Positions 29,621 to 64,000 of a stretch of 64,000 nucleotides of DNA are shown here, one piece after another. Numbering within the stretch: position 1 is the first letter of the stretch; the number at the start of each line of letters is the position of its first letter. The position numbers were made by a program, and so were the translations under genes. Origin of the DNA: Candidatus Epulonipiscium sp. (GTDB taxonomy: Bacteria; Bacillota; Clostridia; Lachnospirales; Defluviitaleaceae); the NCBI GenBank assembly GCA_012519205.1, contig JAAYQR010000023.1, positions 62,001-126,000 on the forward strand. The letters run 5' to 3'. The notes below the pieces were generated by a model. The model was not told the origin of the DNA and did not search any database. It saw only the letters and a program-made list of their open reading frames with translations.

Positions 29621-29677
29621 TTAAAAGATTACACACTTATCCTGCTTTTATAGCAAAACAAATGTGTAATCTTTTAA
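29621..29677 (-). terminator. Terminator downstream of the LacI-family gene
   Basis: Fifteen-base arms (29621-29635 and 29663-29677) are perfectly complementary. The 27-base loop holds a smaller hairpin (TGCT/AGCA), and a T-rich tract follows on the minus strand. Confidence 0.7.
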
Positions 29678-29704: not shown

Positions 29705-30745
29705 TTATTTTTTCATTTCGGGAAAAGACCTACTATATCTTATATTGCCTTCAACAATTATAGTTTCATAAGGCATATTCTTATTATTTAGCCTCCATAG
29801 AAGTTCTTGAACAAGCCTACCCCCGAGGTTATTTCTATCAATCTCCACTGTTGTTAGGTAAGGTTCAATGGCAGCTGCTTCCCTCTTATTGTCAAAACCA
29901 CAAACCGCTATATCTTCTGGGATTTTATATCCCTGTGACCTATAGTATTTGATTACCCACATAGCCACATCATCATTGCAGCATACAAATGCCTCAGGGA
30001 CCAATTTAATATTTTCCAGATGACTGCGTACCTCTTCATATATATAATATTTTTCAGGAGTATGCTTAATTAAACAAATTTCATCAATGATAGGTATACC
30101 ATTTGACTGCATTGCTTTTGCATATCCTTGATACCTATCATAGACTGTTCTGCAATAAGTAATGTCTCCTATAAATCCTATCTTTTTTCTACCTGTTTTT
30201 ATGAGGGTATTGGTAAATTCATAAACATTTTTCACACCCTCTACCAAAATTACATCTCCTAAGGGTTTATCGTCATACGGATTTACAGGGGCATCCAAAA
30301 AGACCATAGGAAGTTTTAAATTTGATAGTTTTAAAACAAAATCCTTCTTAAATACATCTAATAAAATAATTCCAACTACATTATCATACTTTACGGAAGC
30401 GGGTATTATTCCCTTTTCTTCATCTTCACGACTTACAAAACTATAAAGTACATTATATTCATTTTTATCTATTTTATCGAAAATTCCTAGGGCAATTTCG
30501 TCCCAGAAGCTGGAGATATCCCTATGAACGAAAACTATAATATTCTTGATTTCTTTTTTTGTATAACTTAAAAATTCTTCTTTAATCTTGGGATCTAACT
30601 TTTTATATCCCATTTCTGCTGCCTTAACAATAACCCTATATCTTGTTTCATAGGCTACGGTATCACTATTATTCAAAGCTTTAGATACAGTGTTTCTTGA
30701 TAAATTTAATTCTTCTGCTATAGTTTTTATAGATACTTTCTTCAT
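29705..30745 (-). CDS. LacI-family transcriptional regulator
   Basis: The 346-residue protein begins with the LacI headpiece (VSIKTIAEELNLSRNTVSKALNNS) followed by a periplasmic-binding-like sensor domain; CGFDNKREAAAIEPYLTTVEI is a typical late motif. GGAGGTATGAC precedes the ATG. It is the next gene, same strand, after the last gene of the 13-kb sugar-transport operon, separated by a hairpin. It is the natural candidate for the regulator of that operon, but this is inferred from position. Confidence 0.9.
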   Translation of the reverse strand: MKKVSIKTIAEELNLSRNTVSKALNNSDTVAYETRYRVIVKAAEMGYKKLDPKIKEEFLSYTKKEIKNIIVFVHRDISSFWDEIALGIFDKIDKNEYNVLYSFVSREDEEKGIIPASVKYDNVVGIILLDVFKKDFVLKLSNLKLPMVFLDAPVNPYDDKPLGDVILVEGVKNVYEFTNTLIKTGRKKIGFIGDITYCRTVYDRYQGYAKAMQSNGIPIIDEICLIKHTPEKYYIYEEVRSHLENIKLVPEAFVCCNDDVAMWVIKYYRSQGYKIPEDIAVCGFDNKREAAAIEPYLTTVEIDRNNLGGRLVQELLWRLNNKNMPYETIIVEGNIRYSRSFPEMKK

Positions 30746-30783: not shown

Positions 30784-30822
30784 ATGAACCTCTTAGCAGA
30801 ATTATTCTGCTAAGAAGTTCAT
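30784..30822 (-). other. Intercistronic hairpin without a U-tract
   Basis: TCTTAGCAGA pairs with TCTGCTAAGA and, after one mismatch, ATGAAC pairs with GTTCAT, making a 16-pair stem with a five-base loop. The bases after it on the minus strand (AAATAG) are not a U-run. It may stop 3' exonucleases or tune lacI expression rather than terminate. Confidence 0.6.
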
Positions 30823-30839: not shown

Positions 30840-32294
30840 TTATTTAGCTTTACTAAGAAGTTCATCAACTGCATCTTGTGCTACCTGTTTGTAAGCTTCC
30901 ACTGCTTGTGAAACCGTCATTTCTCCAGAAGTTACATTACCAATAATATCTCCCATAGGGAAGTTTGGAACGTATTCGTACAATTCAATTTTACCATTAT
31001 TTGCGGAAACATCAATAGAAAAGTCAACATCTTCTTGGGTTAAATAAAGGGTCTGTAACCATTCCATAGTACTATCATCTCTTATTGCTGGGTCATCCCC
31101 GAAAAACCATAACAATTCTTCCATTACTTGATATATCTTTTCAGGATCTTTGGTCCCTTTAGGAAGCGCAAATCCATCATAAGCAGCAGCATAGCATATA
31201 TCCGGAGAACCACTTGGTCCTACTGGGAATGGAACTATACTGTACTCAAATGGGAGGGAGGCTTTTGCCTCTGCTAACATCCAGCTTAAAACTGGGAAGA
31301 ATAAGATATTTCCTTCTTTATATGCATTAAAGTTGGCATCATAATTCCAGATATCATTTTCTGCATTGTATATAACCTTATCCACATTATACATCTTATT
31401 AATGAACTCTATAGTTTCCATGGTTCTAGGGTCATCTAAGTTTTGTTTTCCCGCGGCATCGTCGAAAATAGAGCCTCCATTTGCTACAACAAGACTAGCT
31501 AATCCAGTATTTATAAATCCTGAATAGCCATATGTATCCATAACTCCGTCTCCATCCTTATCTTGGGTTGCTGCCTTAGCAAGTTCTATGAATTTATCCC
31601 AATTCCAATCAGTTTTATTTCCATTGTATACTTCTCTTGGATCTTGTAATCCTAAATCCTGAATTATATTCTTATTGTATCCTAAGAATATGCCATTATT
31701 AGGTAAACCTATTGCATTAAATAGATATTCATCTCCAAGAATCTTTCCCAAAGATTGAACTGCTATTTGTTCTGTCTTAGCATCCGAATTACTTGATAGA
31801 TATTCACTCATAGGCATTAATAAATCATTTGCCATTGCAGGTAAAGAAAAACTAGATGGTAAGAAAACCACATCTGCATATGGTTCCCCTGACATAACAG
31901 AAGTTGTTAACTTTGGCTGTATTTCATCCCAAGAAATAATCATCATTTCGATTTTACAATTGTACTTTTCCTCAACCCTTTTTAGGTTTTCATACTTAGC
32001 AATCTCTTCAGGCAATGCTGTTGCCGGATCGGGTTCTTCCATATCACTATGGGCTACCACATCCCACCATCCGGAAACTGTAATAGTTTTTCCGCCTAAA
32101 TCAAAAGCCTCATATTTATCCCTGGGATCTTTAGGCTCTTCCACCTTTTCCGGTTCTTCCTTTTTTTCTGTCTCTGTTATATCTGCCTTGTCAATGTCTG
32201 TTGTCTCAACATCGTCCTTCTTCCCACATCCTGTAAAAGATAGGGTAAGAATAACCATCATTAATACTGAAACTAACCTAAAATACTTCTTCAT
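30840..32294 (-). CDS. Carbohydrate ABC transporter substrate-binding lipoprotein
   Basis: The 484-residue protein has a lipoprotein signal peptide with lipobox SFTGC (Cys23), then a threonine- and glutamate-rich linker to about residue 60, then a family 1 solute-binding domain (WDVVAHSDMEEPDPATALP, PYADVVFLPSS, DLGLQDPREVY-DWNWDKFIELAKAATQDKDGDGVMDTYGY). It should be anchored outside the membrane and deliver a sugar to the permease pair encoded just upstream. It is the last structural gene of the operon. The substrate is unknown. Confidence 0.88.
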   Translation of the reverse strand: MKKYFRLVSVLMMVILTLSFTGCGKKDDVETTDIDKADITETEKKEEPEKVEEPKDPRDKYEAFDLGGKTITVSGWWDVVAHSDMEEPDPATALPEEIAKYENLKRVEEKYNCKIEMMIISWDEIQPKLTTSVMSGEPYADVVFLPSSFSLPAMANDLLMPMSEYLSSNSDAKTEQIAVQSLGKILGDEYLFNAIGLPNNGIFLGYNKNIIQDLGLQDPREVYNGNKTDWNWDKFIELAKAATQDKDGDGVMDTYGYSGFINTGLASLVVANGGSIFDDAAGKQNLDDPRTMETIEFINKMYNVDKVIYNAENDIWNYDANFNAYKEGNILFFPVLSWMLAEAKASLPFEYSIVPFPVGPSGSPDICYAAAYDGFALPKGTKDPEKIYQVMEELLWFFGDDPAIRDDSTMEWLQTLYLTQEDVDFSIDVSANNGKIELYEYVPNFPMGDIIGNVTSGEMTVSQAVEAYKQVAQDAVDELLSKAK

Positions 32295-32362
32295 TTTAAA
32301 ACCCTCCTTGAAATTTGAATTTATTTTAAAAATAATAGAAATTATTTTTAAAACCTTATAAA

Positions 32363-33331
32363 TTAACCTACAATACCACTTCTTTCGATGCCCTCCATAA
32401 AATATCTTTGTAAAAATACATAAACAATAATAATCGGAGTGATAGCTAAGAGCACTGCTGCATTCATTATTAAATCTACATGCAATGGGTCATATATCCT
32501 ATCCACTGTACTAAGGGAACCAGCCATAGTCGTAAGTTTTAAGGCAAGCAAGTTAGAATTAGGCATAAACAAAGATGCATAAAAAGTATCATTATACTGC
32601 CATACTAGGGAAAACAATAATACAGTAACAATAGATGGAATCGCATTAGGAAGCATAATTCTAAAATATGTATAAAAACTCCCTGCCCCATCTATAAAAG
32701 CTGCTTCTTCTATTTCTTTAGGTAATCCCCTAAAAAACTGCCTAAAAATATAAATATAAAGACCAGATCTAAGCCCCATTCCCATTAACGTCATAAGGGT
32801 TATGGGAATCTTCGTATTTAATATACTTATTCCTTCTTTTCCTGTTACTAACTTGATAATCCCAAATAAATCAAAATATCTAAACTGTGTATAAAGAGGA
32901 ACCATGATTGTATATATGGGAACTACAATGGTCAATATTACACAGCCAAATAATATATTCCTCCCCGGAAACCTAAACCTAGCAAATCCATATCCGACTA
33001 AAGAACATATAAAAGCCTGAATTATCATTAACAAGAACACAAAGCTAACCGTAGAAAATAGAGTCTTTAGATAATTCATCTTAGTGTAAGCCTTTTTTAT
33101 ATGCTCCAGGGTTGGAGTTATTGGTATTAGATAAACCAAAGGGTTGTATGCATCTTCTATACTTGTAAAGGAATTACTAATAATGGTTATTATGGGTCCT
33201 AGCACTATGTAGGATATCCCAATAATAATAATCCATTTAAACACATCTAATAAAATACTTTTAATTTTACTTTGTACCTTATGTTTATCGTTTTCAGTTA
33301 TTTTAAACTCCATACCATAAGCTAATTTCAT
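32363..33331 (-). CDS. Carbohydrate ABC transporter permease (MalG type)
   Basis: A 322-residue membrane protein with six predicted helices and the EAA loop IEEAAFIDGAGSFYTYFRIMLPNAIPSI, which contacts the ATPase. A 30-residue charged N-terminal extension precedes the first helix. GGGAGGAGGGGG precedes the ATG. It pairs with the permease 15 bp upstream. No ATPase gene is in the operon, so a shared MsmX-like ATPase must serve it. Confidence 0.92.
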   Translation of the reverse strand: MKLAYGMEFKITENDKHKVQSKIKSILLDVFKWIIIIGISYIVLGPIITIISNSFTSIEDAYNPLVYLIPITPTLEHIKKAYTKMNYLKTLFSTVSFVFLLMIIQAFICSLVGYGFARFRFPGRNILFGCVILTIVVPIYTIMVPLYTQFRYFDLFGIIKLVTGKEGISILNTKIPITLMTLMGMGLRSGLYIYIFRQFFRGLPKEIEEAAFIDGAGSFYTYFRIMLPNAIPSIVTVLLFSLVWQYNDTFYASLFMPNSNLLALKLTTMAGSLSTVDRIYDPLHVDLIMNAAVLLAITPIIIVYVFLQRYFMEGIERSGIVG

Positions 33332-33346
33332 CTGCCCCCTCCTCCC

Positions 33347-34252
33347 TTAATTTTGATAGAATGTCTTTTTAGATATTAGATAACCTACAGTAATTAAAAT
33401 AATACATACACTGGCAGAGCTAAGTATGGACATAGCAGAACTCAGACCAAAATTCATAGAAGTAAATGCCGTAGTATAAATCGTATTTACCACATCGCTA
33501 ACTGTAAAAGAGTCTATAATTGTATATATGACATTAGTAAGGATAAGAGGACTTACCATAGGAAATGTTATTTTCCAAAAAGATTCATAGGTAGTTGCTC
33601 CTTCTATTTTTGCTACTTCATAGAGGGCTCCAGGTATTGCTTGAAGGGCCGCCAAAAATATTAATATCTGAACACTAGAGGCCTTAACTATATCGTATAT
33701 TCTATTAACTGCACCCTCTATATAATCTAATAAAATCGTGGGAAACCCAAGTTCCATAAAAACTCTTAGTAGATATCTTGCACTAAAGCCTGATGCTTCC
33801 CTCATTTCAGGAGGAACAGAAGATACCCCTCCTATAATCATATTCATAGCCGCTTGCAAAGCATCACTAATAGCACTAGAAAGCAGTATCACAGGAAGAA
33901 AAAAGATTGCCCTTACTACGGTTCTCCCTTTAAACTTTTGATTTAATATCATTGCCATAAGCAAACTAAAAAACACTATAAGGGGAACATCAATTAACAT
34001 ATCAGTAATAGATGTTGTAAGAATCCTATTAAATTCCCCATGCTTTGTTAAAGCATATATATAATTGGATATTCCCGCGAATTCCAATCTATAGCCCCCT
34101 GCAGGATTAACAATAACATTACATAGGCTATAATAGACGGCATGAAGTAAATTAATGGCAAAAAAACAGATAAATCCAATCAGCCAGGGGGATATAAAAG
34201 TAAAGCCCAATACCATTTCTCTTTGTCGTAAGGTCAATCCTTTTTTCTTCAC
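33347..34252 (-). CDS. Carbohydrate ABC transporter permease (MalF type)
   Basis: A 301-residue protein with six predicted helices: FISPWLIGFICFFAINLLHAVYYSL at the start and the EAA loop LYEVAKIEGATTYESFWKITFPMVSP. A GTG start codon overlaps the stop of the DUF5696 gene (GTGA), with GGAAGGGAA upstream. A large outside loop between helices two and four (about residues 130-190) is longer than in MalF-like minimal permeases. It is the partner of the next permease. Confidence 0.88.
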   Translation of the reverse strand: MKKKGLTLRQREMVLGFTFISPWLIGFICFFAINLLHAVYYSLCNVIVNPAGGYRLEFAGISNYIYALTKHGEFNRILTTSITDMLIDVPLIVFFSLLMAMILNQKFKGRTVVRAIFFLPVILLSSAISDALQAAMNMIIGGVSSVPPEMREASGFSARYLLRVFMELGFPTILLDYIEGAVNRIYDIVKASSVQILIFLAALQAIPGALYEVAKIEGATTYESFWKITFPMVSPLILTNVIYTIIDSFTVSDVVNTIYTTAFTSMNFGLSSAMSILSSASVCIILITVGYLISKKTFYQN

Positions 34253-36831
34253 TTCCCTTCCCCCCCTATCATCACATAATCTTTTGCTTCAACAGTAATG
34301 CCAGATATATTTTCAGGCATATCATTATAGTTAATATAAATTTTTGCTCCATTCTCATAAACTATCTCTACCACGCCATTTTCGTGCCTAATATGTTCTG
34401 TGATGCTTACATTAGTTAGATGGTCTAAGGCCCTGGATACTTCTTCATATATTACCTTAGCATCGTTTACCCAATCTAAATACTGTGTAGAGTACATAAA
34501 GTTCAAGGAAGTATCCTTAAGCCTTGATGTTTCTTCGTAAGTCCATGTAAAATAAGGGGCACTACCACATTCAATCATTTTTAAAATATCTCTATCTCTT
34601 TCATAATCACTTTCTAAGTTAATTGAATTTCCTGCATAATCTATAAAACCATGAATTACCATTGGATAAAAAGGGACTTCTTCATCTACAATATAAAATT
34701 TATTATCTGTGATTGGTAAATTGACTATATCGGTAGCGTAGGGCAATGAATACGCATTCCCTCCCTTAATCATAAGCTTATGGGTATTATTTTCTAGTCT
34801 GCTTAATTGCCCTGTTACAATGTTTTTCGCAAATTCCCTATGTATTGGGCGTTTTCTTTTTTTATCAGATGCAATAACATCCCCCAAATCTCTTAATGAT
34901 AATCCATCTATCCCTAACTTTGTATAATCTTTGATAAATGAACTAACATGCTTTGGCAAAACAGCAGGGGATAAAATATAGTATGCTGCTTCATCAAATC
35001 TTGTACCCATTCTCATAGTTGCTCTTAAATATGGAGATAGTTGAACGGTTATCCCTGAAATATAACGTGTTGCTTCAAAGGCTGGCATATAAGAATCACT
35101 TGTATAACTAACCCTTTGAAATGCAACATCGGGGTAGAGTTCCCCTCCTGTTTCTTTAATCTTTTTAGAAACATTTATAAGTTCTTTTTTACTTCCCAGT
35201 TTATTAATTATATCTACAGACTTTGCCACATCATGGTAATACCCGTCGTTAAACCATCCTGAATACCTTAAGTTAATATTACTTACTCCCATTTTTGAGA
35301 GCTCATCAATTATAATTCCAGCTTCATCAAAGGTAGTCATGGGATAACTTGCTTTATAAGGGATTCCTGCAATGGTCTTTCTTTTTTCTATTCCTCCTAT
35401 TAACTCTAAATAAAAAGGTAACTTTCTATATCCTGATTTCTTTAATATTCCTTTATTTATAAGACAGTTTTGATAATACTTTGCCATTCCCGAGTAATTC
35501 GCCATATCTTTCGCAAGAAACCCATAACGAATGGTTATATTCCCGTCATACATCTTTTCTTCTACTACAGGCAAGTCTGATTCTCTTCCTGTTGCCCCGA
35601 ACATTGATAAAAATTCATAATCCCTTACAGTGAAATAACTATAGGCATAATTGTAAGAATTAACTTTACCACTAATATCCGCACAAATAGTAGCTATTGT
35701 ATCCCCTTCCTCAATCATAGCAAGTACTGCTCCATTATCTTTTTTTATTCCGAAAACGGGCAACCTTGCAGGCTCAATAGTCTGTGTCTGTGTATAACTA
35801 ATAACTACAGGATCTAGAGAATATACTTGCTGCAAATATGCATCATTATTTATTTTCCCATTGTTAAAATAAATAAGTGAACCAGAACCATTGGGAACAA
35901 ACATATATCCATCTTCACTGACATCCCCAGCACCAAAATACCTTAAGAGCTCTATGCTAGATAATTTTCCCACTGAGCTTTCTTTTATATGATTTGCTGC
36001 AATGCTAACCACCAATTCTTCTCCCTCTAATTTATAATCTAAAGGAATAGTAAAGTAAGCGGTTTCTCCCTTTTGTTTACCCCCGCTTGCTTCATTTTCA
36101 TATGCTAAATCCTCTTTCGTGTATCCTGCCTCCTCAAAGGCTTCTAGAAGTTGTTTTAGAAGAATCTTAGATTTTACTGCATTTTCCCTTAATTCAAGGA
36201 AACCTTTGTTTGTTTTAGATTCTATATATTGTTTTTTAACTGTTTTTACTGACTCTTCGCCTAATTTACTTAACACCTTATCTTCTAATCTTTCAACCGT
36301 TATAAATTTTGGGAGACTGTCTTCTTCGGATTCTATCTTCCCTAAAGTGTATTTAATCCTAACACCATTTTCTATACTTTCCATAATAAATTGCCCCAGG
36401 GCTATACTATCCCTATAGTTTGTCATTGTGGCTTCTACTCTATTGACATCATAGTATTTTATAGCTAATTGTGATGAGAGCATATCCTTATTTGCTTGGT
36501 TTGCTATGGAATCATTTTCTCTATTAATAGGGTTTGAATAAAAGATTTCTTTTGTTCTCTTGTCATACACTGCTACTTCTGTGGTTTCTTCATTTATATA
36601 CAGTTTCAAACTATCATTTTCAGCCGCCAATAGCATTTTATCAATACTTTTCAAGTTATCTTTAAGAGCATTGAACTCTTTACCTTCATCAAATTCATAA
36701 ACCCCTTTAAAGCACATATAATCCTCTATTTTTACATATTTGAAATAAACATAGACGAAAGAAATAGCAGATACTATTAAGATGGTGCAAACTAATAAAA
36801 GTATAATTTGTTTAACGTTGATTTTTTTCAC
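34249..36831 (-). CDS. DUF5696 membrane-anchored protein, possible glycoside-hydrolase-like fold
   Basis: An 860-residue protein with one N-terminal transmembrane anchor (about residues 8-28) and a large extracellular part. Residues about 60-420 look beta-rich (MFVPNGSGSLIYFNNGK). About 470-720 resembles a TIM barrel (YLELIGGIEKRKTIAGIPYK, MGVSNINLRYSGWFNDGYYHD, GIDGLSLRDLGDVIASD). The C-terminus has VEIVYENGAKIYINYNDMP, a strand pattern seen after the barrel in several glycosidase families. I recognise it as a DUF5696 type that accompanies sugar ABC genes. A catalytic role is inference. The start is GTG with GGGGGG upstream. It overlaps the downstream permease by 4 bp. Confidence 0.75.
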   Translation of the reverse strand: MKKINVKQIILLLVCTILIVSAISFVYVYFKYVKIEDYMCFKGVYEFDEGKEFNALKDNLKSIDKMLLAAENDSLKLYINEETTEVAVYDKRTKEIFYSNPINRENDSIANQANKDMLSSQLAIKYYDVNRVEATMTNYRDSIALGQFIMESIENGVRIKYTLGKIESEEDSLPKFITVERLEDKVLSKLGEESVKTVKKQYIESKTNKGFLELRENAVKSKILLKQLLEAFEEAGYTKEDLAYENEASGGKQKGETAYFTIPLDYKLEGEELVVSIAANHIKESSVGKLSSIELLRYFGAGDVSEDGYMFVPNGSGSLIYFNNGKINNDAYLQQVYSLDPVVISYTQTQTIEPARLPVFGIKKDNGAVLAMIEEGDTIATICADISGKVNSYNYAYSYFTVRDYEFLSMFGATGRESDLPVVEEKMYDGNITIRYGFLAKDMANYSGMAKYYQNCLINKGILKKSGYRKLPFYLELIGGIEKRKTIAGIPYKASYPMTTFDEAGIIIDELSKMGVSNINLRYSGWFNDGYYHDVAKSVDIINKLGSKKELINVSKKIKETGGELYPDVAFQRVSYTSDSYMPAFEATRYISGITVQLSPYLRATMRMGTRFDEAAYYILSPAVLPKHVSSFIKDYTKLGIDGLSLRDLGDVIASDKKRKRPIHREFAKNIVTGQLSRLENNTHKLMIKGGNAYSLPYATDIVNLPITDNKFYIVDEEVPFYPMVIHGFIDYAGNSINLESDYERDRDILKMIECGSAPYFTWTYEETSRLKDTSLNFMYSTQYLDWVNDAKVIYEEVSRALDHLTNVSITEHIRHENGVVEIVYENGAKIYINYNDMPENISGITVEAKDYVMIGGEGK

Positions 36832-36843
36832 TGGTTTGCCCCC

Positions 36844-37461
36844 CTAAGCTCTAAAAATTAATTCTGTATAGATACTATATATAAACATATATACTTGTTG
36901 AAGCAGCAAGATTATAAGCAGAGATAAAAAGATGATTATTAAAATAGCTACAAAGGTCAAAAATATAGTAGCAAAGGTTTTAGAAACCGTATAATTATGA
37001 ATCGACATAATCCCCATAAATAGCAGAAATATAAACCACACAACAGCAATCCAAATTACCATATAATAAAAAGCTTCTTCATTTCTTGCCACATAATTTC
37101 CTATAATTGTTGCCAGGGGAAATGCCAATATTAAAGGCGTTAAAGAGTAAGATGTAGCCATAGCTATTTCTTTAAACTTTCCTTCTCCCTCCATCAAGGT
37201 AGTAATAGACCAATTCCCTACGCACCACAAAAAGTACATAAGCAAAATTCCTGTCAAATCAACTAAACTATTAAGAGTTAATGGATATACCTTATTAACT
37301 ACAAATCCAGCATACTGCCTATTTATGGAATAAACTACCCAAAATAAAATGAGATTTATAATGGTTACTTTCATACTTCCTTCTTTTTCATGTTTCATAT
37401 CATAGAACCCACTTGCTGGATGAGTTATCACATAAAGAGGAAATTTAAACTTCTTAAGCAT
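36844..37461 (-). CDS. YIP1-family integral membrane protein
   Basis: A 205-residue protein with about five hydrophobic helices and the N-terminal cytoplasmic segment YVITHPASGFYDMKHEKEGS, which marks bacterial YIP1 proteins. MYFLWCVGNWSITTLMEGEGKFKEI and SYSLTPLILAFPLATI fit the family. YIP1 proteins of this kind recur in clostridial and paenibacilli sugar-transport clusters, but their function is not known to me. It overlaps the propeller gene by 8 bp and ends 12 bp before the DUF5696 gene. Confidence 0.8.
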   Translation of the reverse strand: MLKKFKFPLYVITHPASGFYDMKHEKEGSMKVTIINLILFWVVYSINRQYAGFVVNKVYPLTLNSLVDLTGILLMYFLWCVGNWSITTLMEGEGKFKEIAMATSYSLTPLILAFPLATIIGNYVARNEEAFYYMVIWIAVVWFIFLLFMGIMSIHNYTVSKTFATIFLTFVAILIIIFLSLLIILLLQQVYMFIYSIYTELIFRA

Positions 37462-38905
37462 TGATTTTCTTCCCCCTTCTCTTAAACTTTCTATAAATCT
37501 TATAACCCATATATAAAATAACTAAAATAAAAATCCCATTCATAATGTAGACAAGATTAGATTTAAGGACTTCATTTCTATATCTTTTATATGCAATAGA
37601 ATAATATTTTTGATCCATCCCTAATTTTAAGTACTTTAAAGCTTCTTTGTTCTTATTTTTTGCAAGAAGTGATTTACCAATTCCTACATAAGCTAATTCA
37701 AAATTCGCATCTAGCTTCAATACCTTCTCCCAATATTCTACCGCCTTTTCCTCTTCACCGTCATAACGAAGTCCGATTGCCTTATTAATCAAGTCTCCGT
37801 ATTGAGTCGGCTTAAATATAATTAGTTCTCCCCTTTCTTTATCAACAACTATAATCTTATCCCCAATAGCTTCTATGGCACTAGGATTTTTAAAGGTCCC
37901 AACTTGACTTCCTATACTTCCAAAAATATAAAGTAAATTTCCCTCATGATCGTAGGTAAATATTCTTCCTCTCTGGGAATCAATAGCAGAATATAAACCT
38001 TTATCCCTGACGACAATATCTATAAATTGAGAGGGTCCCGTATAACGCCTTCCTGCCGGCCTAAAAAACAAATCCCCTTTTACAAATTTATCTTCTGGTC
38101 TTTTTAATACATCATCACCGCTAGGGTTTAACCTTTTAATAGTTTCATCGGATTTAATGTCAACATTAGTGGTGTAAACAAATCCACTTTCATCTAGATC
38201 AAGTCCAGTAAACTCTGTAGGAATATATAACTGTTGCCTTTGCCTTTGAGCTTTTGTCGATATGCTCCTCCATATAATATCCGTAATTCCGATGGTTACC
38301 TTAATGGTACCTAAATACCCATGGAATTCTCCCTTATCAGTAAAACTCATAATCCCCTCGAATACACCTTTCCCTACTACATATACTCTATCTGCATAAT
38401 CTACCCCTACTTTTAAGGGGGTAAAGGAAAAATTCTCATCGAAGGTTTCTGATTTTGGATTATCAATACACAAAATCAAATCCAAATCTGGAGATAAAAC
38501 AACTACTCTCTTGTTTTCCGTATCTGCTACATATATATTTCCTCTATCATTAACAAAGATTCCCTGTGGTTTATTAAATGTATCGCTTTTACCATCATTG
38601 CTAAATCTATCAATAATTCTTTCTACATTCCATTTATCATTAAAAACTATTATCCTATTATTGCCCGTATCTACTAGATAAATCTCCCCACCCTTTGTAA
38701 TATAAATATCAGAGGGTTGATTGAGTCTTTCAACCCCTAAATCCGAACCGGATAAACTATCTTCGGGAACATATGGGGCAGGGGATGGTACAACTACCTC
38801 CCAATAATCATAGTTATAGCTTTCATAGGGTACCCCCGCAACTGCAACTGAATTTGAAAAAATTAAACTTAACATTATTAAGAAATATAAATATTTACGT
38901 TTCAA
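37454..38905 (-). CDS. Secreted NHL-type beta-propeller with TPR and C-terminal anchor
   Basis: A 483-residue protein: signal peptide (about 1-23), NHL-like propeller repeats (about 60-370, with LNQPSDIYITKGGEIYLVDTGNNRIIVF and FNKPQGIFVNDRGNIYVADTENKRVVVL), two TPR-like repeats (about 375-440, RYDGEEEKAVEYWEKVLKLDANFELAYVGIGKSLL), then one transmembrane helix and a basic tail. It should therefore display propeller and TPR outside the membrane. Both modules bind proteins or glycans. The start is TTG behind GGGGGG. Its place between permease pairs suggests a scaffold for the transport complex; that is inference. Confidence 0.82.
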   Translation of the reverse strand: MKRKYLYFLIMLSLIFSNSVAVAGVPYESYNYDYWEVVVPSPAPYVPEDSLSGSDLGVERLNQPSDIYITKGGEIYLVDTGNNRIIVFNDKWNVERIIDRFSNDGKSDTFNKPQGIFVNDRGNIYVADTENKRVVVLSPDLDLILCIDNPKSETFDENFSFTPLKVGVDYADRVYVVGKGVFEGIMSFTDKGEFHGYLGTIKVTIGITDIIWRSISTKAQRQRQQLYIPTEFTGLDLDESGFVYTTNVDIKSDETIKRLNPSGDDVLKRPEDKFVKGDLFFRPAGRRYTGPSQFIDIVVRDKGLYSAIDSQRGRIFTYDHEGNLLYIFGSIGSQVGTFKNPSAIEAIGDKIIVVDKERGELIIFKPTQYGDLINKAIGLRYDGEEEKAVEYWEKVLKLDANFELAYVGIGKSLLAKNKNKEALKYLKLGMDQKYYSIAYKRYRNEVLKSNLVYIMNGIFILVILYMGYKIYRKFKRRGKKINA

Positions 38906-38917
38906 GGCCTACCCCCC

Positions 38918-39793
38918 TTACTCTTTCATGCCTGAGGTTGACATGGTTTCTATAATATTACTTTGAGCTACAACAAAGAAAATAATAGGTACGCTCATTA
39001 ATATTAGTCCCACAGCGCTTCCTGCTCCCGCCCTTGCAACTCCTCCTTGCACTATCTGATTTAGGGCATAGTTTAGTGGTTTTAACTGCTCGCTTCTTAG
39101 AAAATTACTACCTGTTGTTCCCCATAACTGTTGAAACATAAGTATCGTAAGAGTGAGCCATGCAGGCTTTACATTTGGCATAATAATTGACCAAAATATC
39201 TTATATTCGCTGGCACCATCAAGCCTAGCAGATTCGATTAATGAATCGGGTATCTGTTCCATGAATTGCTTCATAAGATATAATCCCAAGGAACTGGCCC
39301 ATGCCGGAAATATAACCGCTAAGTATGTATTATTTATTCCCATCCATGAAATAATCATATAGTTGGGAATTGCTGTTACGTTATAGGAAAACATAAGCGA
39401 AAGAACAACAATAGAAAATAATAAGTTTTTCCCAGGAATATCATGTTTTGCTAAGGGATAGGCAGCTGCTGATGCAATAATCACATGTCCCAATGTTCCG
39501 AAAAACGTAAGTATTACCGTATTAAGTATGTATCTGCTAAAGGGCACCCAAGAGCTAGACATTAAAATAAATAAATCTGAGAAATTATCCATAGTAGGAT
39601 TTTGAACAAAAATCCTTGGGGGAAATATAAACAATTCATGCAATGGTTTAAACGCATTATTAATAATGTATATAAGGGGTAGGGCCATAAAAGAGCCCAC
39701 CAAAGCTATAAATATAAATAATGCTAAGGTTCCACCAAAGGATCTATTCACTCTTTTCGGCCCCATAATTGGATTGCGCACACTACTCACCAA
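38918..39793 (-). CDS. Carbohydrate ABC transporter permease (MalG type), second set
   Basis: A 291-residue membrane protein with six predicted helices and the EAA loop LIESARLDGASEYKIFWSIIMPNVKPAW. Its first hydrophobic segment follows MVSSVRNPIMGPKRVNRSFGG. The start is ambiguous: TTG at 39793, GTG at 39790 and GTG at 39781 all lie near AAAGG. It overlaps the upstream permease by 11 bp and pairs with it. Confidence 0.88.
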   Translation of the reverse strand: MVSSVRNPIMGPKRVNRSFGGTLALFIFIALVGSFMALPLIYIINNAFKPLHELFIFPPRIFVQNPTMDNFSDLFILMSSSWVPFSRYILNTVILTFFGTLGHVIIASAAAYPLAKHDIPGKNLLFSIVVLSLMFSYNVTAIPNYMIISWMGINNTYLAVIFPAWASSLGLYLMKQFMEQIPDSLIESARLDGASEYKIFWSIIMPNVKPAWLTLTILMFQQLWGTTGSNFLRSEQLKPLNYALNQIVQGGVARAGAGSAVGLILMSVPIIFFVVAQSNIIETMSTSGMKE

Positions 39794-40757
39794 CCTTTCT
39801 TAGAAGCCTTTGTACACCCTTGTTTACCCCTATCATTAGTAAAAATAATATGGTTGCGATAGCAGAGGCATAACCCATTTCAAAACGAATTGTACCAAAA
39901 TCAATTAGATGAGTTACAACGGTTTCCCCTGCATAATTAACACTGGGGAATCCTGCCAAATTAATTGAAATGTCTGCAACAGCAAAGGCTTGAGTTAATT
40001 GAACAACTGCTCCAAACATGAGTTGTGGTTTCATAGAAGGAAGGGTAATGTACCATAATTCCTGCCATCTATTTGTAATACCGTCTACAGCTCCAGCCTC
40101 ATAAAGGCTTCTATCCACAGTCTGAAGCCCCGCAATAAAGGCAAGAAAGCCTGTTCCTAAACTAAGCCAAAGCTGGACAATTATTAAAATAGGCAAGATA
40201 TACTTTGCATCTTTTAGCCATTGGATAGGATCTATAACTAGACCTAAATTAATCAAAAAACCATTGGCTAATCCATATCTATCCCCAGAAAATATAATTC
40301 TCCAAATGAAATATACATTACCAGATATGGATGGAGCATAAAATATTAGGGTTAAAACTGCCCTTATCTTACTAGGAAATTCATTAATAATCCAAGCAAA
40401 AACAAAACACATAATATAGCTTAAAGGGCCTGTAATAACCGCAAATAGCAAAGTATTTTTTATGGATGTTATAAATATATCATCTTCTAGAAACAATCTT
40501 GTATAATTATCCCACCCTATAAAATCAGGCAGTTCAAGTATATTAAAGTTTGTGAAACTTAGGGCTATAGATGCAATAACTGGTAATATGGTAAATGCAA
40601 AAAATAGTATGAAATAAGGTATCATTAATATATAGGAATCCCTGTTTTTTCTCATTAAATTAAATTGGTTCTTAAAGTTAGTAGAAGGTTCATGTTTATT
40701 ATTAAGATTTAACGCTTTATTCTTTTTGGCTTTTTCCATTACAACAGATTTCTGCAT
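39783..40757 (-). CDS. Carbohydrate ABC transporter permease (MalF type), second set
   Basis: A 324-residue protein with a hydrophilic N-terminal extension of about 40 residues, then six predicted helices (SYILMIPYFILFFAFTILPVIASIALSF first) and the EAA loop LYEAGAVDGITNRWQELWYITLPSMKPQL. AAAGGAGG precedes the ATG. It directly follows the large binding protein gene (11 bp), which probably supplies its substrate. Confidence 0.92.
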   Translation of the reverse strand: MQKSVVMEKAKKNKALNLNNKHEPSTNFKNQFNLMRKNRDSYILMIPYFILFFAFTILPVIASIALSFTNFNILELPDFIGWDNYTRLFLEDDIFITSIKNTLLFAVITGPLSYIMCFVFAWIINEFPSKIRAVLTLIFYAPSISGNVYFIWRIIFSGDRYGLANGFLINLGLVIDPIQWLKDAKYILPILIIVQLWLSLGTGFLAFIAGLQTVDRSLYEAGAVDGITNRWQELWYITLPSMKPQLMFGAVVQLTQAFAVADISINLAGFPSVNYAGETVVTHLIDFGTIRFEMGYASAIATILFLLMIGVNKGVQRLLRKVGE

Positions 40758-40768
40758 ATGAACCTCCT

Positions 40769-43684
40769 TTATTGGGTTAGACCAAATTCTTTTCTCTTAT
40801 ATTCTATTTCATCGTTAATGTATCTTACATAGTCCATCAAAGCCTCTCTTGGGGCATTGTTCTCGTTAACAACAACCTCATAGAAGGCGTTATTTATATG
40901 TCTCGTAGTAAAATATCCCCCGGGAACCTGTGGAACTCCCCTAACATTTTTAAATTGCTCGTCTAATGCCTTATAATGCTCTACAGGCCATGGCAGACTT
41001 GAAAAAGCCTCTATATTTGCAGTAGGATATCTAGCCGCCGACCCCATCAATCCTTCCATTTCTCTTCCAAATCCAATCTGAACCTTGGCATCAGTCCACC
41101 ATTTCATAAACTCCCAGGATGCTTCTTTGTTTTTTGAGTTTTCCATCATAATACATGCTGTCCCCGTGCTAGGAACATCATATTTTATGGTCCCATCCTT
41201 TAAAACCGTTCCAGGAACCGATGTGAATCCCCATAATCCCTTAATTTCAGGGGCAGACACCTGTAATGTGTTATAGGTTGTATAATCTGAAACCATAAGG
41301 GGCATTTCCCCAGTCCTAAATCGACTTACAGGATCAAACTCTCTTTCTAATTTAAAATCTGTATAGTATTCGGTAAAATCTTTAAAGGCTTGAATAGAAG
41401 AATCAGAGCTTAAACCTGAGGCTGTGGCATTTTCATTATAAAACTCTCCTCCGTTTTGGTATAGGAATATCCCAAATACGGCCTCTGAAACTGGTATCAT
41501 ACCTATTTGATCCTTATTAAAATATCCTGTAGGAAGTAATCCAAAAGCCATTTGGTTTTTACTAAGCACACTGAGGGCTACTTTAACTTCATCCCAGGTT
41601 TTAGGTGTTTCTAATCCCAGTTCCTTTAGAATATCCTTCCTGTAAAATAACATATTAAAGGTCTGCTGTTCCGGAAGGGCAAAACACCTATCTTCAAACA
41701 TATAAGGTATCATTGCGCTTCCATAAAACCTTTCAGCGACTTCATCAAAACCCTCAAATTTTGATAAATCCGTTACGGCATTTCTCATGCCATAATTCAT
41801 GGGAATGTCATTCCATACCTGCATAGCTACATCAGGTCCCTGTCCTGACAATGTTGCAGGTAGGAGGGTATTTATATCTACAAGCATTAAGTTTACATTA
41901 ATTCCTGTGTTTTTAGTAAAATCTTCATCAATCAAAGATTTAATAGTATTTGCTTGGTCACGGCCTGTTCCAATCCATACAGTAATTGCTTTTTGTTCTT
42001 TTTCTTTTGCGACATTACCGATGGCATTATAATCAATTACAAAAGAATAATACAATGTCTTTAATTCGTGAAGAAGTTTATTCCAAAATGAGTCTTTTAA
42101 CTTTGGCGGTTTTTCCGAAGGTGATATGATATAAATCTGATCTAGCTGCAGGGGCTGCTCGATTGCTTGGGTCATCCATGTCCCCATAGAACCAATGTTT
42201 TGTTTGAACTGGTTTAATCTTCTAGTTATGGTTTCAACATCTTTTGAAAGAGCATTAAGTTCATCCCTCATTGTGATAAGACCTACTTCTCTATCACTTA
42301 TTTTCCCTGCCATCCTTTCCAAATCATTTATAACTTTATCCACCCTATCCCTTTCAGTATTAATGGCATCAACAATTCCAGGAAGATTTTTTTCTATCTG
42401 GTAATCCCTGTATCTATCAGGGGTGGTTCCGGTTATACTTAAAAACTGTCTATAGATTTCATTTAGATTTCTAACACCAATTTCAACTTCCCTAATGACA
42501 GAAGATAATTCCCCTAGGACAACTTCCATCCGGATGGTATGTTTTCCCTCTTCTAAATAAAACAAATAGGGCTCATCTCCCCCGAGAACTTCTACTCTCC
42601 AATCCTTTTTATATCTAAAAGGTATTTCCTCCATCTCTTTAAATGGAACTTTTCCATCTATATATAATTTCCTAGATGAATAAATTCCTCTTATAAAGTT
42701 TTGTTTTGCATTGAAGGCTACTTTATATAATCCACTTTCGGGTACATCCACTTCCCATTGTACCCATTGTCCGGCGTCTCTCCAATTACTTCCTCCCATG
42801 GTGTTGTTTAGGTATACCTTAGGGCTATAAGGGGTAACCGCAGGACTTGAATGTTCCATGGTTGGATATAACATTTGTGAAGACTTCGAAGATGGTTTTT
42901 CTGCTTCTATTGTAATAAACTGATTATGTGTTTCTTTATATCCATTATTTTTATACTCTTCAAGTTTTTCCTCATAGGTAAGTACTTCCTTCTCCTGATA
43001 AATCTTAATGTTTCTAAGAACCATCGGCTCTCTTCTTGAAACTATACTTAAGCTGTGCATTCCTTTTGATAAATAAAATTTGAAAGGTGTTGTATGGTAC
43101 CCTTGATAATCCTGAACTACTTTTTCTAACCAAATAGGGCTTTCTACCTGACTAGGTCTTAAATCATTACCCTGATTATCTTTTAATGCCTCTCCTTGTT
43201 TATCAATCCATATTCTATCAAATTCAATGTTGTTTGCTTCTGAGAATGGAAGTTTACCATCTATGAAAATTGCTCTTTGTATAGCAGAACTCTTACCTTC
43301 TACAGGATAATATAAAAAAGATATATTGTAGAAGCCTTCTTCCTCAATATATAGCTCATATTTAACAAATCCTTCTTCCCCTGTAAATACAGATTTCCCC
43401 TTCATCCCCTGGTAATCTTCTAAGATTTCTATATCCATATTACTGTAATCTTTAAATTTATCCGCATCTATTATATATTCCTTATTTGGGAGATTATCTT
43501 TATCATAATTTTTGTTGTACTCATCATATTTTATAATGTCCATATAAGAGTTCAGTACCTCATTGTATTCATCCATTGTATTTTGGGCATATGTATCTTG
43601 AATAGGCAACAATCCCATGGTAATAAAAACTATATTCACTATAGTTATTGCAATAATTCTTTTAAGCTCTCTAATCCTCCTCAA
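40769..43684 (-). CDS. Large substrate-binding protein fused to two carbohydrate-binding-like domains
   Basis: A 971-residue protein, about twice the usual size. After an N-terminal signal or anchor (about 1-33, no lipobox Cys) come two beta-sandwich modules. The first (about 95-225) contains YELYIEEEGFYNISFLYYP. The second (about 255-400) has GQWVQWEVDVPESGLYKVAF, like CBM6/35-type domains. A helical, probably coiled-coil region (about 425-505) follows, then a family 1 solute-binding domain from about 565 (AITVWIGTGRDQANTIKSLI). The start is TTG at 43684 with GAGGGG upstream; an AGGAGG just after it leaves some doubt. It leads the operon. Retention by a non-cleaved N-terminal helix or by glycan binding is possible. 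Confidence 0.85.
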   Translation of the reverse strand: MRRIRELKRIIAITIVNIVFITMGLLPIQDTYAQNTMDEYNEVLNSYMDIIKYDEYNKNYDKDNLPNKEYIIDADKFKDYSNMDIEILEDYQGMKGKSVFTGEEGFVKYELYIEEEGFYNISFLYYPVEGKSSAIQRAIFIDGKLPFSEANNIEFDRIWIDKQGEALKDNQGNDLRPSQVESPIWLEKVVQDYQGYHTTPFKFYLSKGMHSLSIVSRREPMVLRNIKIYQEKEVLTYEEKLEEYKNNGYKETHNQFITIEAEKPSSKSSQMLYPTMEHSSPAVTPYSPKVYLNNTMGGSNWRDAGQWVQWEVDVPESGLYKVAFNAKQNFIRGIYSSRKLYIDGKVPFKEMEEIPFRYKKDWRVEVLGGDEPYLFYLEEGKHTIRMEVVLGELSSVIREVEIGVRNLNEIYRQFLSITGTTPDRYRDYQIEKNLPGIVDAINTERDRVDKVINDLERMAGKISDREVGLITMRDELNALSKDVETITRRLNQFKQNIGSMGTWMTQAIEQPLQLDQIYIISPSEKPPKLKDSFWNKLLHELKTLYYSFVIDYNAIGNVAKEKEQKAITVWIGTGRDQANTIKSLIDEDFTKNTGINVNLMLVDINTLLPATLSGQGPDVAMQVWNDIPMNYGMRNAVTDLSKFEGFDEVAERFYGSAMIPYMFEDRCFALPEQQTFNMLFYRKDILKELGLETPKTWDEVKVALSVLSKNQMAFGLLPTGYFNKDQIGMIPVSEAVFGIFLYQNGGEFYNENATASGLSSDSSIQAFKDFTEYYTDFKLEREFDPVSRFRTGEMPLMVSDYTTYNTLQVSAPEIKGLWGFTSVPGTVLKDGTIKYDVPSTGTACIMMENSKNKEASWEFMKWWTDAKVQIGFGREMEGLMGSAARYPTANIEAFSSLPWPVEHYKALDEQFKNVRGVPQVPGGYFTTRHINNAFYEVVVNENNAPREALMDYVRYINDEIEYKRKEFGLTQ

Positions 43685-43775
43685 GGTTTTAGTCCCCTCT
43701 TTAATAATTATCTTTCATTTAATGGTGCAATACTGCGATATATTGTGCAACAATTTGTCTTATGTCATAAATTTA

Positions 43776-43804
43776 TTATCACATATTTAAGTTTGACTTG
43801 TCAA
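43776..43804 (-). promoter_or_regulatory. Promoter of the 13-kb carbohydrate operon
   Basis: Minus strand TTGACA (43804-43799), 17-base spacer, TGATAA (43781-43776). The -35 lies in an imperfect palindrome (TTGAC-TT-GTCAA on the plus strand), and two direct TTGCAC repeats occur downstream near 43730-43750. Either could be a regulator site. Confidence 0.55.
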
Positions 43805-58695: not shown

Positions 58696-58725
58696 AAAAA
58701 TAAGAGAGCAAGCTCTCTTATTTTT
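58696..58725. terminator. Bidirectional terminator between the transpeptidase and TraB/GumN genes
   Basis: AAAAATAAGAGAGC and GCTCTCTTATTTTT are perfect arms with a two-base gap, and overlap the last bases of the convergent TraB/GumN gene. Confidence 0.88.
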
Positions 58726-60118
58726 ATTTTACTAATTCAACTTCATAACCTTTTTCTTCTAATTGATCAATAACCATACCCTCTACAACAAAATGTCCAA
58801 ATCCTACTACTACAAAATAGGTCCCTTCCTCGTCCTTTTCTAAAAGTTCGATAATCTTTTCTGTCATATTTTCATCCCGTTTCCCAAAAAGGGCCTTAGT
58901 AAATTCATCCTCAGATGCATTAAGGGAAGCTGCATATGACCCCCTAAGATCCTCTATTTCTCCATTTACCCATTGTTTCTGCCATAATTCTACAACTGAT
59001 TCTGTATCAGCAATTTCCGTAGAAACTGGATTTAGAATTTCATTTAAAATGCCGTTTAAATGACTTTCTTGAAGTTCTTGCGGTATACTATTAAATAAAT
59101 CCGCTTGGAACCTAATGCCTTCTAATTCCATAATAGGTTTCCCTTGTAGCAACGCACTGCTTAAGAAATACATATCGATTCCTGCATTAGCAACTTCTGC
59201 TGCACCTTCTAAGGTTTCTGTGGCGCTGCTTGTGATTACAGCTAAGTCATTAGCAATAGACCAAGGCTTAAAGTTTTCATACACATCCATAGGTAAGCTA
59301 AACTTTTCAAATACCTGAAGGCATTTTTCATAGGTCGCTTCTGACACATTATCTTTTAGGGTCGTGCCATCCTGATACATTGCTTGTTGTATGAAATAGT
59401 CCATGCCCTCTTGCATACTAAGTAAATTTGCTTCTACAACAAGGGCATCCGCTTCTTCAAAAGCAGCCCTAATTTTCTTATTTAATGGGTACATATCTGT
59501 TCTACCTACATGAATAGAACCTAATAAATAAACAGTATTTTTTCCCTTGGCTGTTTTCCAAAAAAGTCCCTTGGAACCACCATCAAGGGCATCACATGTA
59601 TCCATTATTAATCTGCTAACCATAACTACTGCTTGTTCTACTGTAGCTGGACTATCAAGTTCAAGCCCTTTATCACTTCCATTAATTATTCCCTTCTTAA
59701 TCATAAAATCTATCGGGGAATCCGCTTTAATTGTTAACTCTTCTGATAATACATACCCATCAAAAAGATAATATATGGACTCTGCTACAGCTTTTCTCGA
59801 ACCATCAAATGCATTTTGATTAAATTCATAGGATTGTTTCTCTTGAAGTCCTAAAGCCTTTAATTTCTCATCTGTACCCTTTAGCAGCATCTGCATCTTG
59901 TCTTCGGTAATAGTTTCATTGAACCCATAGTTGTACCAATGTAAGGGGTATATTCCATACCTTTCTGCCTCATTTAAAGTTTGTATTGCCCAGAAACTTA
60001 TATCTGGTTGCGGAACCTCTTCAGCCAAGACAGGTAATACATTCGAAAAAATCATAATAAGGGTTAATAATCCTGCCATAATCCCCTTTTTAATTTTTTT
60101 CAACCACTTTCTTTCCAT
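58724..60118 (-). CDS. Secreted TraB/GumN-family protein with SLH-like N-terminal region
   Basis: The 464-residue protein has a signal peptide (about 1-33, ending PVLAEE), an N-terminal region (about 40-190) with two SLH-like stretches (SFWAIQTLNEAERYGIYP and the IKKGIINGSD-TVEQAVVMVSRLI pattern), and a TraB/GumN domain (about 200-464). The latter has KGKNTVYLLGSIHVGRTDMYP and the closing FVVVGFGHFVVEGMVIDQL, the two Gly-x-x-His-type motifs of this TIKI-like metalloprotease superfamily. AAAGGAGG fits the ATG at 60118; the frame opens 14 codons earlier. It probably acts at the cell surface; substrate unknown. Confidence 0.85.
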   Translation of the reverse strand: MERKWLKKIKKGIMAGLLTLIMIFSNVLPVLAEEVPQPDISFWAIQTLNEAERYGIYPLHWYNYGFNETITEDKMQMLLKGTDEKLKALGLQEKQSYEFNQNAFDGSRKAVAESIYYLFDGYVLSEELTIKADSPIDFMIKKGIINGSDKGLELDSPATVEQAVVMVSRLIMDTCDALDGGSKGLFWKTAKGKNTVYLLGSIHVGRTDMYPLNKKIRAAFEEADALVVEANLLSMQEGMDYFIQQAMYQDGTTLKDNVSEATYEKCLQVFEKFSLPMDVYENFKPWSIANDLAVITSSATETLEGAAEVANAGIDMYFLSSALLQGKPIMELEGIRFQADLFNSIPQELQESHLNGILNEILNPVSTEIADTESVVELWQKQWVNGEIEDLRGSYAASLNASEDEFTKALFGKRDENMTEKIIELLEKDEEGTYFVVVGFGHFVVEGMVIDQLEEKGYEVELVK

Positions 60119-60244
60119 TTGTTTTCCTCCTTTTAATGTATTCAATTTATTTGTAAACAAATCTAATAATAGATTTATTTTTCAGAAACTTTTATATCTA
60201 GGCAATACAATATCACAATTAAATTTTATATTCAAGTAATGCTT

Positions 60245-60275
60245 AAAAAAAATGGTGCCTAGGCACCATTTTTTT
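60245..60275 (-). terminator. Terminator of the Lpl/Ytc-type ABC operon
   Basis: AAAATGGTGCCT and AGGCACCATTTT form a perfect inverted repeat flanked by long A and T runs. It lies 3 bp after the end of the binding-protein gene. Confidence 0.85.
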
Positions 60276-60278
60276 AGA

Positions 60279-62003: not shown

Positions 62004-62068
62004 TTCTTGTCCCCCTCGTTTCATATTTTTACTATATAAAAATTTTTTGCAAACTTTTGCAAAAATTT

Positions 62069-62962
62069 TTAACTTTTGACTGCTCCTATGGTCATCCCTG
62101 AAACAAAATATTTCTGAATAAAAGGATAAATCATAATAATAGGAGCTGTGGCAACAACTGTGATTGCCATTCTAACCGATTCTGGTGATATTCTATTTCT
62201 TTCTGCTACCATCCCCGCCATGGCAGCCCTTTGCGCCATGTTTTGAGAAGCTGATAGATTGCTTAATATTTTCATCATTTCAAACTGAAGGGTGGTAAGG
62301 TTAGCTTTATTGCTTGCATATAAATAAGTGTCAAACCAAGAATTCCACTGACCTACAGCTATAAAAAGTGCTACTACGGCTATTGCTGGTTTGCATAAAG
62401 GCATTACTATCTTAAAAAATATCTGTAAATCATTTGCCCCATCTATTTTAGCCGATTCTTGAATCTCATAAGGTAAGGATTCCATAAATGAACGAAGCAC
62501 TATTACATTAAATGCCCATACTAGTCCAGGTAGAATATACACCCAGAACTTCCCTACTAAATTCAATTGTCGGATAAGCATATATTCTGGAATCATCCCT
62601 CCTGATACATACATAGTAATAACCAATAATGCACCAATAGGTCTTCTAAGAAAATAGTCCTTTCTACTTAAGGTATAAGCTATCATACAAGAACATATAA
62701 GCCCCGATAAAGTTCCTATAACCGTCCTTGATATTGATATAAAAAGTGCCTGACCTATATTGGCATATTTAAAGATTTCCGTATAATTCTCGAAGGTAAA
62801 TTTCCTAGGCCAAAGGTATATGCCCCCCTTTATGCTATCTAGGGACTCGTTAAAAGAAATTGCTAAAATATTTATAAAAGGATAAATTGTAATAGCTATT
62901 ACAAAAATCATAATTATATAAAGAATAGAATCGAATAATTTTTCCAAAAAGCTCCTTTTCAT
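62069..62962 (-). CDS. ABC transporter permease (LplC/YtcP type)
   Basis: A 297-residue protein with six predicted helices, the LplC-type start YIIMIFVIAITIYPFINILAISFN, the EAA loop IQESAKIDGANDLQIFFKIVMPLCKPA and the closing YPFIQKYFVSGMTIGAVKS, which is very typical of this subgroup. It lies 18 bp after its partner and 65 bp before the binding-protein gene. No ATPase is encoded. Confidence 0.94.
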   Translation of the reverse strand: MKRSFLEKLFDSILYIIMIFVIAITIYPFINILAISFNESLDSIKGGIYLWPRKFTFENYTEIFKYANIGQALFISISRTVIGTLSGLICSCMIAYTLSRKDYFLRRPIGALLVITMYVSGGMIPEYMLIRQLNLVGKFWVYILPGLVWAFNVIVLRSFMESLPYEIQESAKIDGANDLQIFFKIVMPLCKPAIAVVALFIAVGQWNSWFDTYLYASNKANLTTLQFEMMKILSNLSASQNMAQRAAMAGMVAERNRISPESVRMAITVVATAPIIMIYPFIQKYFVSGMTIGAVKS

Positions 62963-62980
62963 TGCTACCCCCCCTGTTAT

Positions 62981-63949: not shown

Positions 63950-64000
63950 TTTCCCACCCCTTAAGTAGTTTGATTTTCGTTTGTCTACTGGATTTGTTAG

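Follow-up and report, generated by a model that had tools for sequence, protein, structure and literature searches.

A conserved clostridial gene block combining two sugar permease pairs with a GH129-fold DUF5696 protein and NHL/TPR and YIP1 membrane proteins

Why would an operon for sugar import carry two complete permease pairs and, between them, three further envelope proteins? This question is raised by nine genes of Candidatus Epulonipiscium sp. (assembly GCA_012519205.1) found in a stretch of 64,000 nucleotides, positions 62,001 to 126,000 of the contig JAAYQR010000023.1 (the whole stretch is termed the window, and the coordinates below are its own). Nine co-directional, tightly packed open reading frames (ORFs) extend from 43684 to 30840 on the minus strand and encode, in the order of transcription, the sugar-binding protein (SBP) SBP2 (971 aa), the permeases P2a and P2b, an NHL/TPR protein (TPR, tetratricopeptide repeat), a YIP1-domain protein, a DUF5696 protein, the permeases P1a and P1b, and a second sugar-binding protein, SBP1. 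The run and its gene order agree with those given by a first-pass annotation, which regarded the genes as a coupled surface machine. The block represents a widely conserved membrane system of eight to nine genes in clostridia and paenibacilli, probably serving the uptake of sugar chains released from plant hemicelluloses.

Conservation and co-occurrence of the block

We collected 60 DUF5696 neighbourhoods from the genomes of the order and class of the window, and a named genome collection supplied a further 80. In the latter, a narrow alignment yielded 561 confirmed relatives, and the ones retained belong to Clostridia and Paenibacillaceae. A six-frame profile search found the eight core genes in all of the 126 loci with enough flank, the order being identical in 123. 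Some loci had appeared to lack NHL or YIP1, but these absences were gaps left by the ORF caller, and all 126 loci were complete in the six-frame search. The two permease pairs flank the envelope genes in a fixed order, and one pair was never found without the other in the 126 loci.

Since the 126 loci had been chosen by DUF5696 and high similarity, co-occurrence was tested independently with SBP2. The N-terminal half of SBP2 was detected in 79 of 391 genomes of the class, full DUF5696 in 80, and both in 78, the last being 78 of the 81 genomes with either (Fisher p ~7e-79, with relatedness ignored). The three exceptions comprise one SBP2 genome in which DUF5696 was found as a small fragment match and two fragmented drafts with DUF5696 alone. 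A neighbourhood shared by chance is ruled out by this test. In a sample of the phylum, SBP2 was present in 33 of 299 genomes (a few of which gave no more than a short N-terminal match), and a single genome may hold up to five copies. The block is found in about one fifth of the sampled genomes of the class and about one tenth of the phylum sample, and three of its proteins have no function that we could find.

The NHL/TPR protein (37454..38905; this and all following gene coordinates are on the minus strand) was assigned by Pfam (NHL), profile matches to NHL and TPR structures, and hydropathy, and comprises a signal sequence, an extracytoplasmic NHL beta-propeller, TPR, and a single C-terminal membrane helix. 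The YIP1-domain protein (36844..37461; Pfam Yip1) has about five membrane segments according to hydropathy. The two are one polypeptide in 18 related loci, and the fusion state requires at least five changes on the DUF5696 tree. Because of these fusions and state changes, the sequences suggest that NHL/TPR and YIP1 very likely act together.

Altogether, an obligate partnership of the genes in the block is well supported by the sequence comparisons. The first-pass annotation had already treated the genes as one unit and had named a conserved-neighbourhood analysis as the check, with genes occurring independently in most genomes as the contrary outcome. The block was kept in 126 of 126 loci and its genes did not occur independently in most genomes; the complete loci, the near-perfect co-occurrence of SBP2 and DUF5696, and the NHL::YIP1 fusions all favour the unit. 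A decaying copy of the block was also seen, in which the frames of SBP2, DUF5696, and P1a are broken (L088); the same genome possesses intact copies as well.

Fold and catalytic residues of DUF5696

The DUF5696 protein (34249..36831; PF18952, 685 bits) is membrane-anchored and was assigned a GH129/GH101-type fold (GH, glycoside hydrolase). A profile built from 33 members gave matches to DagB (5OPQ, E 3.6e-13) and NagBb (5WZN, E 2.5e-6). Of the structure predictions proposed in the first-pass annotation, that of DUF5696 was run, and the AlphaFold model (predicted local distance difference test, pLDDT, 89) aligned with 5OPQ with a Z of 29.7 over 586 residues at 3.9 A, followed by NagBb (Z 28-29), GH101 (~20), and GH36 (~18). 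In this model, DUF5696 has the GH129-type three-domain fold with a TIM barrel. A GH31/GH36-like assignment was rejected, as the Z for GH36 was only 17-18 against 28-30 for GH129.

The catalytic residues were surveyed in the DUF5696 proteins of the block (module proteins; n=141), ten GH129-like proteins, and nine shorter stand-alone DUF5696-like proteins of the same genomes, with residue equivalence taken from a MAFFT alignment and strand order rather than from a residue-level superposition. The GH129-like proteins carry the motif YLDVF...SSEE and the stand-alone proteins an HYIDVL-type...SSE-type motif. Asp648 of the window protein aligns with the GH129 nucleophile Asp (YLDVF/YIDVL) at the end of strand 4, the GH129-like group being one column off. 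This residue was found in all 90 module proteins of the window's branch, as opposed to 19 of the 51 elsewhere, and D656, R665, D716, and E754 are likewise invariant or nearly so. Glu occupies the acid/base position in all of the ten GH129-like and all of the nine stand-alone proteins, whereas only 5 of the 141 module proteins bear E in the corresponding columns (687-691), where it is replaced mostly by N, S, T, K, or Q. The window protein reads IKGGN at the end of strand 5, where the GH129-like proteins read SSEE. Furthermore, the module proteins lack the HxD motif that GH129 carries in strand 2, as judged from the sequence alignment.

As the acid/base Glu is missing from nearly all module members, a pseudo-enzyme that handles glycans is a likelier identity for DUF5696 than a hydrolase, and the alignment points to a non-catalytic, chain-binding protein as the most likely role of the family. 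It is doubtful, therefore, that DUF5696 processes a glycan as the first-pass annotation supposed: the fold is of the GH129 type, but the acid/base Glu is gone and the nucleophile Asp is constant in one branch only.

The main rival to the chain-binding role is that proteins of the window's branch have kept some catalytic activity or have an altered one. DUF5696 would then represent a new family of active glycosidases related to GH129; anchored in the membrane, it would trim side groups or chain ends prior to import by means of Asp648 and another acid. The GH129-type fold, the constancy of Asp648 in the branch together with that of the four residues listed above, and the full D...SSE motif of the stand-alone relatives are consistent with such an enzyme. 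Besides, DagB and NagBb differ from each other in the second catalytic residue (PMC5698469), so that the lack of a Glu of the NagBb type speaks strongly, though not conclusively, against catalysis. We nevertheless regard an active enzyme as unlikely, albeit a serious contender: in addition to the replaced acid/base Glu and the absent HxD motif, Asp648 is lost in 32 of the 51 module proteins outside the branch, including a xylan-type paralog in the same genome as the window (G at this position; see below), with every partner gene kept.

The stand-alone DUF5696-like proteins (561-599 aa; L214-L222, for instance L214:5788-7503 and L215:4826-6517) reside outside the transporter block with the D...SSE pair intact, and are probably, judging from these residues, uncharacterised active enzymes related to GH129. 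The split between dead module proteins and active stand-alone relatives would offer a clean case of glycosidases becoming binding proteins. In one locus (L079:5332-10729), the DUF5696 gene is split by two ORFs of the opposite strand (263 and 498 aa), which resembles an insertion, and the block is otherwise complete.

Transport components, probable substrate, and control signals

The binding proteins and permeases of a CUT1 importer were found: Pfam detected SBP_bac_1 in SBP1 and SBP2 and BPD_transp_1 in the four permeases (DUF5696, Yip1, and NHL were also matched), and each permease retains an EAA loop, recognised by eye in the translations (EEAAFIDGAGSF..LP, YEVAKIEGATTY..FP, IESARLDGASEY..MP, and YEAGAVDGITNR..LP). 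The EAA loop is the docking site of the ATPase. P2a (39783..40757) is of the MalF/UgpA type; its BPD_transp_1 score (23.3 bits) is slightly below the cut-off of 26.4, and its similarity to UgpA/GlcT in NCBIfam is clear. P2b (38918..39793) is of the MalG/UgpE type, P1a (33347..34252) of the UgpA type, and P1b (32363..33331) of the UgpE/MalG type.

SBP2 (40769..43684; AlphaFold pLDDT 83) comprises an N-terminal membrane segment, two CBM35-like beta-sandwiches (residues ~70-390; CBM, carbohydrate-binding module), a helical stalk (~393-508), and a sugar-binding protein (~560-970). Residues 566-968 matched 5YSB, a beta-1,2-glucooligosaccharide-binding protein, with a Z of 35.5; as the fold search was dominated by the SBP domain, the CBM-like part was assigned by sequence profiles only: relatives gave matches of the CBM35/CBM6 type, and a profile matched the CBM35 of 5X7G. 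The description "CBM-fused" in the first-pass annotation holds for SBP2. SBP1 (30840..32294; Pfam) is a lipoprotein with a lipobox-like FTGC, for which the best PDB match was 6RJY, an arabino-oligosaccharide-binding protein (E 2.3e-28). The gene lies upstream in Paenibacillus and downstream in Clostridia, and was not found in some loci.

Several variants of the binding proteins were seen. In Lachnospiraceae loci such as L158, L175, and L181, an additional SBP-like protein of ~620 aa is encoded between P1b and SBP1, the one tested having a CBM65 domain, and SBP2 is preceded by a membrane protein of the DUF624 (YesL) type. Five genomes (G673, G719, G757, G791, and G820) encode proteins of 396-561 aa whose match is confined to the CBM-like N-terminal half of SBP2; they apparently lack the sugar-binding part.

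The Pfam scan of the block ORFs found neither an ATPase nor a hydrolase gene among the nine, in agreement with the first-pass annotation. This absence is nothing special, since CUT1 importers share one MsmX-type ATPase and the relatives of the block carry adjacent hydrolases. The genome encodes exactly one MalK/MsmX-type (MalK-OB-type) ATPase, on another contig and unlinked to the operon. In B. subtilis, MsmX is a single ATPase powering several importers (PMC5730181), so that the absence of an ATPase from the block is ordinary. By analogy, both permease pairs may be powered by the single MsmX/MalK-type ATPase supplied in trans.

The substrate was approached through the neighbouring genes of related blocks, the label of each locus being that of representatives of the largest neighbour-gene clusters. 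The neighbours are hemicellulases: the clusters include GH26+CBM35, GH130, GH113, GH2 mannosidase, GH5, GH9, and esterases, and other related blocks have GH10, GH43, and GH3 neighbours. The link to surface polysaccharide use made by the first-pass annotation is supported. In the FastTree phylogeny of DUF5696, the window belongs to a clade of 43 rows (support 100), the typed flanks of which are nearly all of the mannan type (GH26/GH130/GH113/GH2), and the substrate type changes only twice on the tree. Mannan-degrading enzymes adjoin the importer in most relatives of this branch. A second whole copy of the block in the same genome (L056) is followed by GH10-CBM4_9 and GH3 and falls in the GH10/GH43 part of the tree; on this placement, it is of the xylan type. 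Elsewhere, the genome encodes GH130 with two esterases and a LacI regulator of their own ~25 kb from the operon, an 802-aa fusion of a mannobiose-2-epimerase-like domain (GlcNAc_2-epim) with GH130 followed by a GH2 mannosidase (L205:8117-10525), and a GH5 lipoprotein-like gene. Since the clade is typed as mannan and mannan enzyme genes occur elsewhere in the genome, beta-mannan oligosaccharides are our best guess, and the most likely substrate suggested by these sequences, for the window copy. The PDB matches of the two SBPs were set aside as a guide, as they do not settle the sugar.

The region from 58724 to 64000 of the window and on into L200:1-8000, ~25 kb from the operon, encodes a second, classical CUT1 transporter together with LacI, a two-component system, GH130, and CE2 and GDSL esterases. 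In a divergent branch, a large transglutaminase-like protein takes the place of glycosidases after the block (L099:3492-5975; the same cluster in L091, L092, and L107), which hints at a different substrate.

The junctions along transcription are +11, -11, +12, -8, +12, -4, +15, and +68 bp, the three negative values being the overlaps of 4-11 bp noted in the first-pass annotation. Every one of the nine genes is preceded by a Shine-Dalgarno-like purine run. A single, strong promoter-like site (TTGACA-18-GATAAT with TG before the -10; 43775..43804, minus strand) lies 91-120 bp upstream of SBP2, and the unit is bounded by terminator-like hairpins, one with a 20-bp stem after LacI (29626..29672, minus strand), the promoter and hairpins all being consensus matches only. 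The gene for a LacI-family regulator (29705..30745; Pfam LacI), 94 bp downstream of SBP1, is probably the regulator of the operon, and LacI genes flank many related blocks too. A repeat search found a 19-nt inverted repeat between SBP1 and LacI (30784..30822; strand not assigned); the promoter of the block was searched as well, and no operator-like inverted repeat was found there.

Proposed uptake machine and comparison with known systems

With slightly better than even confidence, we propose that the products of the block form one machine that takes up hemicellulose oligosaccharides, here most likely beta-mannan, with DUF5696 in a binding role and NHL/TPR-YIP1 as a scaffold. The CBM-like domains of SBP2 would reach outward on the helical stalk to capture chains, and SBP1 would capture chains at the surface as a second, more ordinary binding lipoprotein. 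The membrane-tethered DUF5696 would bind and position the chains or hand them over, more likely than cut them, and NHL/TPR and YIP1 would form one membrane scaffold holding the parts together. Two complete permease heterodimers, powered by the shared MsmX/MalK-type ATPase, would import the oligosaccharides, which would be degraded in the cytoplasm, by phosphorolysis, by enzymes encoded elsewhere (GH130, mannobiose 2-epimerase::GH130, and GH2). What the sequences show directly concerns genes and folds, namely the gene content, the obligate co-occurrence, the NHL::YIP1 fusion, the fold of DUF5696 and its missing acid/base residue, the substrate-typed neighbours of relatives, and the one ATPase gene; from these we infer the physical supercomplex, the hand-over role, and mannan as the substrate of the window copy. 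The boldest form of the proposal, in which the NHL/TPR-YIP1 scaffold and a dead GH129-fold hub join two ATP-binding cassette (ABC) importers as one membrane supercomplex, with many copies serving different hemicelluloses, is tentative, and we lean slightly against accepting it in full.

Several observations weigh against our proposal. No mannan enzyme is adjacent to the window copy, the substrate being taken from relatives, and the genome has only a weak GH26-like match (29 bits). The best matches of the two SBPs bind arabino- and beta-1,2-glucooligosaccharides, and the invariance of Asp648 in the window's branch is odd for a fully dead enzyme. Of the coupled surface machine of the first-pass annotation, the obligate unit and the link to polysaccharides stand, while the processing by DUF5696 does not stand firmly.

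Less probable than an active DUF5696 is that the operon encodes two separate ABC importers for oligosaccharides differing in length or decoration, with the envelope proteins serving one of them or loosely attached, and no joint complex. Two full permease pairs with two binding proteins, the docking loop retained in all four permeases, and the changing place of SBP1 would suit such an arrangement, but the pairs keep their fixed order around the envelope genes and never part in the 126 loci, multi-copy genomes included. That the three envelope proteins are a sensor reporting glycan binding instead of a transport aid is very improbable, for although an NHL propeller and a pseudo-enzyme are suited to binding and a LacI gene is nearby, Pfam found the block to be devoid of output domains such as a kinase or an anti-sigma domain, and LacI regulators are cytoplasmic and would respond to imported sugar.

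If the three proteins are parts of the importer as we propose, the annotation of many hemicellulose transporters taken as "ordinary" in gut and biomass clostridia is incomplete. The co-conservation of the block makes its roles directly testable by deletion.

The first-pass annotation knew of no described function for the block, and we likewise found none in the open-licence literature, in which no paper naming DUF5696 and no relevant one on YIP1/NHL with transporters was found. The transport core is of a known kind (CUT1, MsmX-dependent); for the obligate combination of a pseudo-GH129, NHL/TPR-YIP1, and two permease pairs, we found no description in that literature. In the mannan loci of Firmicutes, the importer is linked to a manno-oligosaccharide enzyme route, as proposed here for the block. 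From such loci, for instance those of Roseburia and Faecalibacterium (PMC9784577, PMC8262883), the window copy differs in its distance from the enzymes, and no account of a DUF5696/NHL/YIP1 part was found in the open-licence literature. Like the MsmX-dependent CUT1 importers of Bacillus subtilis (AraNPQ and the pectin-oligosaccharide importers; PMC5730181, PMC7658222), the block has an SBP and two MalF/MalG-type permeases and no ATPase of its own; unlike them, it has two permease pairs and three conserved, obligate envelope proteins, and its SBP2 bears CBM-like domains and a stalk. DUF5696 shares the N-terminal beta-sandwich, TIM barrel, and C-terminal beta domain (~586 aligned residues) with GH129 and GH129-like enzymes (NagBb, 5WZN; DagB/ZGAL_3152, 5OPQ; PMC5698469), but differs from them in lacking the acid/base Glu and the strand-2 HxD, in its N-terminal membrane anchor, and in being always inside a transporter block. 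In role, though not in parts, the proposed supercomplex would take a place comparable to that of the SusCD systems of Bacteroidetes.

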